A DNA stretch of 40,929 nt, from contig JACQKU010000009.1 of NCBI GenBank assembly GCA_016204335.1, positions 1 through 40,929 of the forward strand. Direction: 5' to 3'. The first letter of the stretch is position 1, and each line of letters opens with the position of its first letter. The notes under the pieces are model-generated. The model ran no database searches, was not told the origin of the DNA, and saw only the letters and a list, made by a program, of their open reading frames with translations. The stretch comes from Candidatus Liptonbacteria bacterium. Lineage in GTDB: Bacteria; Patescibacteriota; Minisyncoccia; UBA6257; 2-01-FULL-56-20. A program made the translations under genes and the position numbers. Shown here one piece after another: positions 21,969 through 24,960 of the stretch.

Positions 21969-22838
21969 TTACTCGGCAGAGAATAATGATTGAAAATGTT
22001 CGTCTAATTGTTCCTTTATGGAAACCTTCGCGGCGGGGTTGAGAATGGAATCCGTGGTGAACACGGCATCGCTGATTGTCTCGAGCTTGTCAAGCGAATT
22101 TCCCAAAAAAAGTCCGTGTGTCGCGGCGCAGGCGATTTTTTCCGCTCCGGCTTCCCGCGCCCATTCCACCGTCTTTATCATGGTATTGCCCGTGCTTATC
22201 ATATCGTCAAGAATGAGCACATTTTTTCCGCGCACCTCGATGTCGCCCTCAAGGGTTTCGACATCGCGATAAATAATGGCGCCGCCTTTGTAGCCGCGGC
22301 GGACTTTGGTGAGCGCGGTGCCGCCCGCGTGTTCGACGAGATAGCTTGCCCCTTGGTCGGGACCGATAACCTCGAATGCCTCATCTTTGAAAATTTTTTC
22401 ACGGGCATAATCGGTGAGCGGCTTTGCCATCGAGATATTTCGAATGGGCAATTCGCCGTGGGTGAAATCGCCCGTTCCTTTCAGAAAATGGCAGTCGATT
22501 GTAATAAAAATTTTGCAGCCGGTACGCGCCAAAAGATTGCAGACAACCTTGCCGCCCGCGATTTCGCCTTTAAGAATATTTTTGTCCTGGCGGGAGTAGG
22601 GGAGATACGGCGACAGGACTGCGACATCGCACTTTTTGTGCGCCAATTCATCGATAATAAGAAGAAGTTCAAGCAAACTGTTATTTTGCTCGGGATACAG
22701 GCGGTGAAGAAGCGTAATCGGCCGGTCTTCGCACGCGCCGAGGTCCGGTATGCGGACATAGCTCTCCCCGTCGGGAAATTTTTTTATTTCTACGTTCGGA
22801 GCAAAAAGGTCGCTGAAGTTCGGGGAGACGAGGAGCAT
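21969..22838 (-). CDS. prs: ribose-phosphate pyrophosphokinase
   Basis: The product has 289 residues from the ATG 22838. The open frame continues upstream through an inverted-repeat element and is not used. It makes PRPP from ribose-5-phosphate and ATP. Seen are KFPDGESYVRI, YLPYSRQDK, VIGPDQGASYLVEHAGG and the PRPP loop VLILDDMISTGNTM. The length is slightly below the usual 310-320, and the N-terminal strand is reduced. Its ATG follows directly after a 132-bp element that carries a TATAAT, shared in layout with the M23 gene. murC follows 21 nt downstream. Confidence 0.92.
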   Translation of the reverse strand: MLLVSPNFSDLFAPNVEIKKFPDGESYVRIPDLGACEDRPITLLHRLYPEQNNSLLELLLIIDELAHKKCDVAVLSPYLPYSRQDKNILKGEIAGGKVVCNLLARTGCKIFITIDCHFLKGTGDFTHGELPIRNISMAKPLTDYAREKIFKDEAFEVIGPDQGASYLVEHAGGTALTKVRRGYKGGAIIYRDVETLEGDIEVRGKNVLILDDMISTGNTMIKTVEWAREAGAEKIACAATHGLFLGNSLDKLETISDAVFTTDSILNPAAKVSIKEQLDEHFQSLFSAE

Positions 22839-22839
22839 A

Positions 22840-22971
22840 CCAGGTAGTAGAAATGCGACTAGATTATATTTATAACTTTGACTTTTAGATGTTTCATGCT
22901 TTGTTGCCAGATGATGTTCTGCAACTGTTTTCTCCGACTGCGGTCGGAGCAGTCGCATTTTCACTACCTGG
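22840..22971 (-). repeat. 132-bp inverted-repeat promoter element, copy 1
   Basis: On the minus strand it begins CCAGGTAGTGAAAATGCGAC and ends with the complement AGTCGCATTTCTACTACCTGG less one base of symmetry. Inside are a hairpin CTCCGAC-CGCA-GTCGGAG near the start and TATAAT 24 nt before the prs ATG. A second copy precedes the M23 gene (24817-24954). The end sequences of the two copies differ by paired changes. It could be a small non-autonomous mobile element carrying an outward promoter, or a structured leader. Confidence 0.75.
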
Positions 22972-22984
22972 CATAAAAAATTAC

Positions 22985-23236
22985 TTAACCATATTTTATT
23001 TTGAGAATAAGTATCCATCCCGTTAAGACAAACGTGATTGCGTTTGCGACGATAATAGGTATATCTTTAATGAGCAATCCGTAGGTTAACCAAAGAAATA
23101 CGCCTGTCGTCGCGATTATATACATCCCGAGCGAAAGCTCATCCGTTTTCTTTGTCTGTGTTATCTCGATTGCCTGCGGAAGATAAGCTGCGGTTGTCAA
23201 TGTCGCGGCAACAAGACCGATGGCAGTTATAATCAT
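22985..23236 (-). CDS. SemiSWEET-type sugar transporter (PQ-loop, MtN3 family)
   Basis: The product has 83 residues from the ATG 23236, the usual SemiSWEET size, with three membrane helices. The hallmark is AAYLPQAIEITQTKKTDELSL, where the PQ motif lies in helix 1 and precedes the conserved K-T-D/E-S segment, then WLTYGLLIKDIPIIVAN. SemiSWEETs dimerise to move sugars by facilitated diffusion. The frame opens 17 codons further upstream, but the promoter places the start at 23236. Confidence 0.87.
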   Translation of the reverse strand: MIITAIGLVAATLTTAAYLPQAIEITQTKKTDELSLGMYIIATTGVFLWLTYGLLIKDIPIIVANAITFVLTGWILILKIKYG

Positions 23237-23242
23237 CAGAGC

Positions 23243-23271
23243 AGTATATTTAATTTGAAGGAAACATGCAA
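23243..23271 (-). promoter_or_regulatory. sigma70-like promoter of the SemiSWEET gene, leaderless
   Basis: TTGCAT (23271-23266), 17-bp spacer, TATACT (23248-23243) on the minus strand; 6 nt to the ATG at 23236. This decides the start codon. Confidence 0.72.
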
Positions 23272-23340
23272 TCAAAAGAGCGGGCAACCGTGGCGAGGGA
23301 GTGATATATCGGAATAATTAGATATGTCGCCCAATATACC

Positions 23341-23525
23341 TTTTACGTCATTACTTAACTTACTGTTTTAAGTAATGACGTAAAAGGTTACGCAGATTTT
23401 ACAACGCCACTTTGTGTCATCGTAAAATCTGCTTCTTACGTCATTACTTAACTTACTGTTTAAATAATGCTAAAAGGTTACGCAGATTTTACAACGCCAC
23501 TTTGTGTCATCGTAAAATCTGCTTC
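23341..23525. repeat. two tandem ~92-bp units, each with two hairpins
   Basis: Unit 1 (23343-23435) and unit 2 (23436-23525) are near identical. Hairpin A in unit 1 is an 18-bp stem (TTTTACGTCATTACTTAA with its complement, loop CTTACTGTT); in unit 2 it is damaged by base changes and a 3-bp deletion. Hairpin B (GCAGATTTTAC / GTAAAATCTGC with an 18-nt loop) is identical in both. The block fills most of the 316-bp gap between the SemiSWEET start and the M23 gene end. No ORF fits it. Confidence 0.85.
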
Positions 23526-23552
23526 ACACGAGCGTAAATCGTAAGTAAATGG

Positions 23553-24815
23553 TCAGAGATAATCTTCCGGATTAACCACTACGCCTATCGGAACAAGCCC
23601 TGCCGCGGGAGGAATTGATTTCATTATGACGCTCGGCGCCCAATACAAGCCGAAATGAAGATGAGGGCCGGTTGCATAGCCGGTGTTGCCGCTGTATCCG
23701 ATTAAGTCCCCCCTTTTCACGTTCGCGCCGGCCGAAACGATTTGCCGGGAAAGATGCGCGTAGAGCGTTGTAAGGTTGTTATCATGTTTTATTAAGATAT
23801 ATTTTCCGTATTGGTATTTTTGCCTGGAACTGCGGTCATTGTTGTCGACGGCGACCACCGCGCCGTCATCCGCGGCGAAAACCGGAGTGCCGATTGGAAT
23901 GCCAATGTCAAGTCCATTGTGGGGTTTATTGCGGTAGAGATAAGATTTTTCTCCGAAATGCTGGGTTATTCTGATGGGAGGCGGGAGTGGCCACGCGAGA
24001 ACGCCCGGGCGTTTTGTCGGAAGAAGCCCGGTGTTGAAAGAGGCACGGAGCTGGTCCTCGGCTTTGCCTATTTCATCTGAAATCGAGTCCTGCTGTTTTT
24101 TAAGGTCCGCCAATTGCTGTTGGTACGTGCTTTCCTGATTCTTTGTCTGAACAAGAGTTATTTTCCGCGTTGCCGTTTGGTCGGCGGCAATCTCTTTCCG
24201 CACGGCCAGATTTTTCTGATGAAGTTGAACTTCCGATTTTTTTTGGCTGCTTTGCTTGATTTTATCGTTCAGCGTCCGGCTCAAACCGGAAAGATTCTGG
24301 ATATCGAGCGATAATTGGCTGCGAAGATTTACCATCGACTGCGTTTCCATAATGCTGTCGGCAAGAGTTCCGTTTTTCAGAAGCACCATCAGGAGATTTG
24401 GCGCTCCTCCGTCATTTTTCTGCAGTTCGACAAGAAGCTTGTTGATTGCCTGTTTTTTGTCGTCAATCGAAGACAAAGTGTCTTTTACGTCGTAATTCAG
24501 CGAGTCGATTTCGAGATTCAGTTTTTGAACCGAAATGGCGTCGCCCAGTATATTCAAATCAAGCTGTTTGATTGAGCCGTTTAACTGAGTAATTTCCTTT
24601 TGAAGCGTGCGGGTTTGATTTTGGGTTGCCTCAAGATTTTTTTGCGCGGTTTGGACCTGGTTGTTGATGGTGTCAAGCTGCCGGTTTTTTTGCTCGATTT
24701 GCGCCTGGAGTTCTTCTCTTGTCAGCGGCGCCGCAGTTTGCGCGCGCGCGTTCGGGAAGATATTCGCGAACAGCATTATTCCGATTGCGGTAACTGTAAA
24801 AATTCGTTTAAGCAT
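23553..24815 (-). CDS. EnvC-like murein hydrolase activator / M23 peptidase
   Basis: The product has 420 residues. Residues 1-25 form a signal peptide (cleavage near ARA-QT). About 30-250 is a long coiled coil (EELQAQIEQKNRQLDTINNQ and onward), and the C-terminal 140 residues are a LytM/M23 domain with HNGLDIG and HLHFG, the zinc ligands and catalytic His. In EnvC/NlpD activators these ligands are missing; here they are present, so it may cut peptidoglycan itself. It acts outside the cell in wall remodelling at division. Its ATG directly follows element copy 2. Confidence 0.92.
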   Translation of the reverse strand: MLKRIFTVTAIGIMLFANIFPNARAQTAAPLTREELQAQIEQKNRQLDTINNQVQTAQKNLEATQNQTRTLQKEITQLNGSIKQLDLNILGDAISVQKLNLEIDSLNYDVKDTLSSIDDKKQAINKLLVELQKNDGGAPNLLMVLLKNGTLADSIMETQSMVNLRSQLSLDIQNLSGLSRTLNDKIKQSSQKKSEVQLHQKNLAVRKEIAADQTATRKITLVQTKNQESTYQQQLADLKKQQDSISDEIGKAEDQLRASFNTGLLPTKRPGVLAWPLPPPIRITQHFGEKSYLYRNKPHNGLDIGIPIGTPVFAADDGAVVAVDNNDRSSRQKYQYGKYILIKHDNNLTTLYAHLSRQIVSAGANVKRGDLIGYSGNTGYATGPHLHFGLYWAPSVIMKSIPPAAGLVPIGVVVNPEDYL

Positions 24816-24816
24816 T

Positions 24817-24954
24817 CCAGTGTAGTAGAAATTCGACTAGATTATTGCCGATTCGACTTTATTGTACCTAAACATTATTTTTTTATGTCAGATATCGTTT
24901 TTTTCACGGACTTTCTCCGATTGCGGTCGGAGCAGTCGAATTTTCACTACCTGG
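24817..24954 (-). repeat. 138-bp inverted-repeat promoter element, copy 2
   Basis: This has the same layout as 22840-22971: starts CCAGGTAGTGAAAATTCGAC, carries hairpin CTCCGAC-CGCA-ATCGGAG, then AATAATCTAGTCGAATTTCT and the end next to the M23 ATG. The middle of the element is unrelated to copy 1. Ends and hairpin are conserved. It sits precisely between the gltX stop and the M23 start. Confidence 0.75.
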
Positions 24955-24960
24955 CATTAT

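Follow-up and report, generated by a model that had tools for sequence, protein, structure and literature searches.

Two inserts of 132 and 138 bp, one upstream of prs and the other upstream of an M23-family peptidase gene in Candidatus Liptonbacteria, are probably non-autonomous copies of a small Patescibacteria transposon that inserts at translation-start signals and would be mobilized by a GIY-YIG nuclease. Judged from comparative sequence data, we put this reading at roughly 70%. The whole 40,929-nt stretch of DNA that was analyzed is referred to below as the window. The material consisted of metagenome assemblies, gene starts were ORF-based, and the genome to which the window belongs (the home genome) is 93% complete.

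The inserts upstream of prs and the M23 peptidase gene

A first-pass annotation had described the two inserts as copies of one element, and its coordinates for them are correct. Their parts and surroundings are as follows.

22840..22971, minus strand: copy 1 of the element, 132 bp; in the gene direction, the 5' arm is followed by the hairpin, an AT-rich middle, and the 3' arm
22951..22971, minus strand: copy 1, 5' arm of terminal stem P1, CCAGGTAGTGAAAATGCGACT; from end pattern and covariation
22840..22860, minus strand: copy 1, 3' arm of terminal stem P1, AGTCGCATTTCTACTACCTGG; from end pattern and covariation
22932..22949, minus strand: copy 1, inner hairpin P2, CTCCGACCGCAGTCGGAG; adjoins the 5' arm, as in most long copies; from family test and fold
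22907..22915, minus strand: copy 1, inner ATCATCTGG; possible alternative partner of the 5' arm
22836..22839, minus strand: target-site duplication TATG, gene-side copy; ATG 22838-22836 is the prs start codon
22972..22975, minus strand: upstream target-site duplication, TATG, where the start codon originally stood
21969..22838, minus strand: prs, ribose-phosphate pyrophosphokinase, the gene behind copy 1
24817..24954, minus strand: copy 2 of the element, 138 bp
24934..24954, minus strand: copy 2, 5' arm of P1, CCAGGTAGTGAAAATTCGACT
24817..24838, minus strand: copy 2, 3' arm of P1, AGTCGAATTTCTACTACACTGG, carrying a one-base insertion
24915..24932, minus strand: copy 2, inner hairpin P2, where a C-G pair is replaced by T.G
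24813..24816, minus strand: gene-side target-site duplication, AATG; its ATG, 24815-24813, starts the M23 peptidase gene
24955..24958, minus strand: upstream target-site duplication, AATG, 2 nt past the stop codon of gltX (24963-24961)
23553..24815, minus strand: M23-family peptidase gene, behind copy 2

Read in the gene direction, copy 1 runs from 22971 to 22840 as TATG, CCAGGTAGTGAAAATGCGACT...AGTCGCATTTCTACTACCTGG, TATG, and copy 2 from 24954 to 24817 as AATG, CCAGGTAGTGAAAATTCGACT...AGTCGAATTTCTACTACACTGG, AATG; on the plus strand the flanks are CATA/CATA and CATT/CATT. The tetramer at the gene start is thus also present upstream of the insert, so that each copy is flanked by a perfect 4-bp direct repeat, the kind of target-site duplication that the first-pass annotation had proposed looking for. 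Copy 2 starts a few nucleotides behind the gltX stop codon, and a tightly spaced gene pair has therefore been split by the insert.

The ends of the window copies are 21 bp each and pair with one another. GTGAAA in the 5' arm lies opposite TTTCTAC in the 3' arm, giving imperfect inverted repeats with a fixed G.T plus A.C mismatch, and copy 2 has an additional base at its outer end (CCAGTGTAG). The resemblances first noted between the copies all stand: the common ends (a 22-mer end pattern has three matches in the window, with none expected), the internal hairpin present in both, and the paired change from GCGACT/AGTCGC to TCGACT/AGTCGA. What had been reported as a G-T exchange in the hairpin is the C-G to T.G change listed above. 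Folded as single-stranded DNA, copy 1 had a z-score of −7.0 and copy 2 one of −3.8.

The first-pass annotation had left two possibilities, a promoter-bearing mini-transposon or a new structured leader. Its −10 boxes, TATAAT (22863-22868) and AATAAT (24841-24846), are present on the minus strand, but across the family no −10 box keeps a constant position ahead of the gene-side ATG, and elements as short as about 60 bp have no room for one, so a promoter-bearing element is not supported. The mini-transposon itself is borne out by the 4-bp duplications and by the dispersed and nested copies described below. Elsewhere in the window, downstream of the M23 gene at 23340-23530, there is a twice-repeated block, ACTTAACTTACTGTTT...AAATAATG, with the hairpin GCAGATTTTACAACGCCACTTTGTGTCATCGTAAAATCTGC.

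A dispersed family with paired ends

The end pattern gave 26 matches in the 700,911-bp home genome, where the reversed control gave none, corresponding to about 20 elements. It was found in 14 of 61 genomes (the home genome and related species), and well over 100 copies are present in related Patescibacteria. When genome contigs were scanned with the tail pattern, at least 110 stretches were recovered, nearly all from Patescibacteria, including Portnoy-, Lipton-, Yanofsky-, Terry-, and Berkelbacteria, among others. The element seeds came largely from this exact tail pattern, and the counts of duplications and start-codon sites below refer to 163 paired elements. A phylum-wide count of a 14-mer was rejected as a measure of copy number, since it includes chance matches, for example to a coding repeat. 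The elements fall into a short class of 58 to 78 bp, made up of the stem with either a loop or a single hairpin, a long class of about 105 to 157 bp, and gene-carrying forms of 306 to 327 bp.

The first-pass annotation had argued from a single paired change that the two ends pair, and this holds on some 50 distinct end pairs. For 48 of them, with 21-nt arms, 96.9% of the cells in P1 were paired, 13 of the 18 pairs showed two-sided change, and the number of cells with two-sided change was 80, compared with 15.8 in shuffles (none of 500 reached it). Pairing collapsed in slid-register controls. Unmatched ends, which had been named as telling against the idea, were looked for in the family and none were seen. 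We also assembled a set independent of pairing, consisting of 113 elements picked by outer motif and exact duplication alone, in which G-A was required at head positions 10 and 11 and the facing T-C was allowed as CT or TC. In this set, the inner nine positions paired at 0.91, against at most 0.83 in 1,000 shuffles, and the mismatch was present as G.T in 113 of 113 and as A.C in 112 of 113 elements. Since a fully paired alternative was allowed and the mismatch was nevertheless near-invariant, the mismatch is as conserved as the pairs. Conserved pairing together with a conserved mismatch is as would be expected if both ends act as one folded strand, of either DNA or RNA.

Long copies have further structure, with an inner hairpin adjoining the 5' arm (p=5e-11) and inner segments complementary to one arm or the other (p=3e-8 and 1e-5), so that alternative folds are possible. 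A search of the window against Rfam returned no family at the gathering threshold, and no group I or group II ribozyme core was among the Rfam hits up to E=1 at eight element loci.

Exact 4-bp duplications of many different sequences flank 115 of the 163 paired elements, and some of the remaining duplications are imperfect. Six short elements have inserted into the head of a further copy (...GTGAAAA / AAAATTCGA), and removal of the insert with one AAAA restores a canonical head. In the home genome, the insert at C9:37013-37144 (L048) interrupts a tRNA-Gly(CCC) gene within its anticodon arm; once the insert and one CAAG are taken out, the cloverleaf folds again. This insert itself holds a second, complete tRNA-Gly(CCC). 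The nested copies and the tRNA-gene copy show that insertion is precise. No orthologous empty allele was obtained, the prs site being too diverged.

Two insertions in other genes were also observed. At C2:16596-16669 in the home genome (L007, L274), the GIY-YIG domain at the N terminus of uvrC holds a 74-bp copy that is in frame and lengthens the gene by about 25 codons with no stop, much like a Rickettsia palindromic element. The other is in Sungiibacteriota, where a 16S gene (L213, 5441-7354) is about 3.3 kb long and contains several hairpin inserts; a 127-bp copy with a CCAG duplication is found in it at GTGCCAG / CAGCCGCGG, beside the 530 loop and directly behind what, read by eye, appears to be the 3' end of a group I intron.

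Sites such as these raise the possibility of an intron-like element that is removed from RNA within the 4-nt repeat, so that its insertions are silent. The stem draws the two repeats together, and removal would mend the tRNA anticodon arm, the 16S gene at the 530 loop, and a helicase gene that carries a copy 5 nt inside it (L062). We nevertheless consider this very improbable. Elements of 60 to 140 nt are too small for group I or group II introns, neither of which was matched, and the uvrC reading frame is open through its copy. The complete tRNA-Gly(CCC) carried by the tRNA insert suggests replacement, and the 16S copy directly adjoins the group-I-like intron end, which may remove it.

Insertion at translation-start signals

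The first-pass annotation remarked that each window copy ends at a start codon, and this is characteristic of the family as well. Start codons of ORFs with 60 or more codons are occupied by 97 of the 163 copies (shorter ORFs were accepted solely at contig ends), 84 with the mismatch in one orientation and 13 with it in the other; about 66 copies have no assigned start. Sites unrelated to gene starts, which had been thought to count against the idea, do exist, as a minority. The genes behind the copies, named from their N termini, include rpoB, serS, rplT, alaS, gyrB, mreB, ndk, and pheS. In the home genome, 24% (573/2375) of ATGs with noncoding sequence upstream start an ORF of at least 60 codons. 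Set against 97/163, this means that a preference for ATG combined with the loss of gene-breaking insertions is insufficient to explain the distribution.

The signal is not always an ATG. At L062, the last G of the element together with TGAA makes a new GTG start. Eight copies in the Berkelbacteria-like genomes G340, G219, and G373 have a Shine-Dalgarno sequence, GAGG or GAG, directly behind the element, with the start codon just after it. Two Liptonbacteria copies duplicate the TTGA of TTGACA, a −35 sequence, with a −10-like box 17 to 18 bp farther on, as judged by eye. Three copies from one genome (L100, L085, and L141) have ATAA duplications at TGTGNATAA / TGTGGATAA or TGTGTATAA, which resemble DnaA boxes.

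At start-codon sites, a −10 box 6 nt before the ATG was enriched (20% versus 8%, p=8e-4) and Shine-Dalgarno sequences were depleted (3.6% versus 11%). We considered whether the target might be the transcription start of leaderless genes and rejected it: despite the −10 enrichment, about a third of the sites, including both window copies, lie just behind an upstream gene in an operon-like arrangement, so promoter targeting cannot explain everything. The start-signal bias could reflect machinery that is aimed at these signals or selection that keeps such insertions, and its sharpness argues for aim.

As an alternative, the elements might be a family of cis-regulatory RNA leaders that spread by duplication and control translation from the start codon at their foot. 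P1 and P2 are selected as structures, inner segments can pair with each arm as alternative folds, and the inner hairpin is mostly gene-distal in the gene direction (42 versus 15). Starts on the gene side are retained more often than the upstream ATG, which sometimes decays (6 versus 2, a weak contrast, since the sites were partly chosen by their gene-side start). The genes behind the copies are, however, unrelated housekeeping genes, short copies have P1 alone, and there was no Rfam match. Target duplications, nesting within other copies, and the copies that interrupt tRNA and 16S genes or lie in frame within uvrC are likewise unlike a cis-regulatory leader. We therefore regard such a family as quite improbable. 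From the first-pass proposal of a new structured leader, what survives is that the insert becomes the leader of the gene behind it, and the element may act as a leader once inserted.

A GIY-YIG gene between the ends and how the element may move

Four elements of 306 to 325 bp (L145, L163, L198, and L199) have a complete GIY-YIG ORF between their arms, matching PF01541 at E values of about 1e-16 to 3e-15, far above the cutoff. The PF01541 search yielded two more, of 322 bp (L285) and 327 bp (L292), both at TATG, and in L067 the C terminus alone is left of the gene. The product, of 86 to 91 amino acids, is encoded by the sole gene between the ends. A GIY-YIG gene occupies this position in at least ten genomes, and no other gene was found there.

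Using the protein profile alone, we found a homologue at 1e-20 in 118 of 380 genomes. Among 30 loci recovered by protein similarity, nine showed both paired ends and a 4-bp duplication at p<0.02, where 0.6 would be expected. These ends and duplications were present at six of the seven nearest homologues (L309, L310, L311, L313, L314, and L315), and such ends were seen by eye at L316 and L318. L309 is the same element as L199 and thus part of the profile; the other recovered loci lie outside it. L310, L314, and L315 have diverged ends in which the GA/CT mismatch is kept. The duplications at homologue loci, among them TATG, ATGA, and AAAG before GGT-AATATG, fall at start regions. Most of the distant homologues among the 30 loci have no detectable ends.

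Two of the homologues without detectable ends (L325 and L336) adjoin apparent tRNA T-arm sequences. At two other loci (L290 and L291), the inverted ends that enclose the GIY-YIG gene have quite another sequence (CCCCGCACCTATTTAAGA; TCCCGTTAGAGACAGCAA) and the duplications are TTGA and TGAA, which suggests a possible wider superfamily; at L291, an ATG is rebuilt in the way that L062 rebuilds its GTG start. Among the five GIY-YIG genes of the home genome, none was found with P1 ends, and two, including uvrC, were not resolved; its copies of the element appear to be non-autonomous.

Terminal repeats, 4-bp duplications, and short non-autonomous copies also make the elements look like MITEs, which an ordinary DDE transposase might move in trans, with the GIY-YIG gene as a passenger or homing-type hitchhiker. 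The home genome, with many copies and no P1-flanked nuclease gene, fits that picture. At the sampled loci, no transposase was found between these ends in elements up to several kilobases, among the matches listed, and the matches listed included no large autonomous copies in element-rich genomes. A 1,749-bp pair of weak ends on contig C1 with a TATG repeat contained no recognizable transposase, had poor ends, and was set aside as a chance pairing. The consistent presence of GIY-YIG as the only gene between the ends also speaks against a passenger, and recognition of double-stranded ends needs neither compensatory change nor a fixed mismatch. Movement by a DDE transposase, with the nuclease gene as a passenger, is on this evidence unlikely.

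We favor instead the GIY-YIG nuclease as the mobilizer, and we infer both that it drives movement and that the ends are recognized as a folded single strand rather than as two independent double-stranded repeats. The two ends would form one imperfect 21-bp stem whose sequence is free to change while its pairing and G.T/A.C mismatch are not. The autonomous form would be about 310 bp long, with a single gene for the 86- to 91-amino-acid nuclease between the same ends. Acting in cis or in trans, the nuclease might cut the foot of the stem and make a staggered cut in the target, and gap filling by host repair would then create the 4-bp duplication. Insertion would be aimed at, or survive mainly at, start signals, NATG in most lineages and GAGG in the Berkelbacteria-like genomes. 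With the signal rebuilt by the duplication right behind the element, the host gene would keep its start codon, and the element would gain a place behind a host promoter or within an operon and be transcribed for free; in the transcript, the insert would form a structured leader ending at the start codon. Counting against this explanation, described GIY-YIG enzymes hydrolyze, and we know of none that joins strands. The stronger proposal, that these elements make up a new class of transposon in which a single GIY-YIG protein of about 87 amino acids mobilizes a folded single strand of about 310 bp, targeting start signals with a duplication that rebuilds the start codon or Shine-Dalgarno sequence, seems to us slightly better than an even bet.

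The element shares with MITEs and insertion sequences its inverted ends, fixed-length duplication, and many short non-autonomous copies alongside rarer gene-carrying ones. It differs in having GIY-YIG as its sole gene and no known transposase (DDE, DEDD, HUH, or serine) at the sampled loci, an autonomous form of only about 310 bp, ends that covary as a stem with a fixed mismatch, and a position on translation-start signals. REP/RAYT systems (TnpA-REP, a Y1 HUH enzyme) comprise dispersed hairpins with conserved mismatches that are recognized as folded single strands, and the element resembles them in having such hairpins. To our knowledge, however, Y1 elements make no 4-bp target duplications, which sets REP/RAYT and IS200/IS605 apart from the element. 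A Y1 transposase was also rejected as the mobilizer: no Y1 HUH nuclease was found in the home genome, and its presence in 14 of 61 relatives is distributed unlike the element.

With GIY-YIG homing endonucleases and UPF0213 proteins, the element nuclease shares the catalytic domain PF01541, and its closest solved structures are the UPF0213 proteins 1zg2 and 1ywl. Unlike a homing endonuclease gene, the element gene is not in an intron and does not home to one allele; it occurs at numerous unrelated positions, flanked by 4-bp duplications. Insertion sequences with GIY-YIG ORFs in CPR rRNA genes have been described as matching neither group I nor group II introns and as seemingly not spread by homing (PMC11270868). 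By that description, they are like the element in placing GIY-YIG genes in non-intron CPR inserts; the passages compared give no ends, duplications, or mechanism (PMC11270868). IStrons are another case in which a mobile element inserts without harm to the gene (PMC4227781), but the harmlessness of the present element would come from a duplicated start signal, and no ribozyme was found in it.

A literature search, mainly of openly accessible papers, found no description of such an element, which is apparently an unusually small, undescribed kind of transposon. If our reading is true, an autonomous form of about 310 bp would rank among the smallest known autonomous transposable elements. It would also suggest that a transposon of extreme minimum size can be driven by a nuclease without known strand-transfer activity and that it follows a "safe harbor" strategy, the gene being restored by the target duplication itself. 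Those Patescibacteria inserts whose spread was left open in the passages compared would gain a testable identity (PMC11270868). Structured leaders of 60 to 140 nt at essential genes such as rpoB, gyrB, alaS, serS, and pheS would be the remains of mobile elements, an origin that would bear on start-site annotation and on the study of translation initiation in Patescibacteria.
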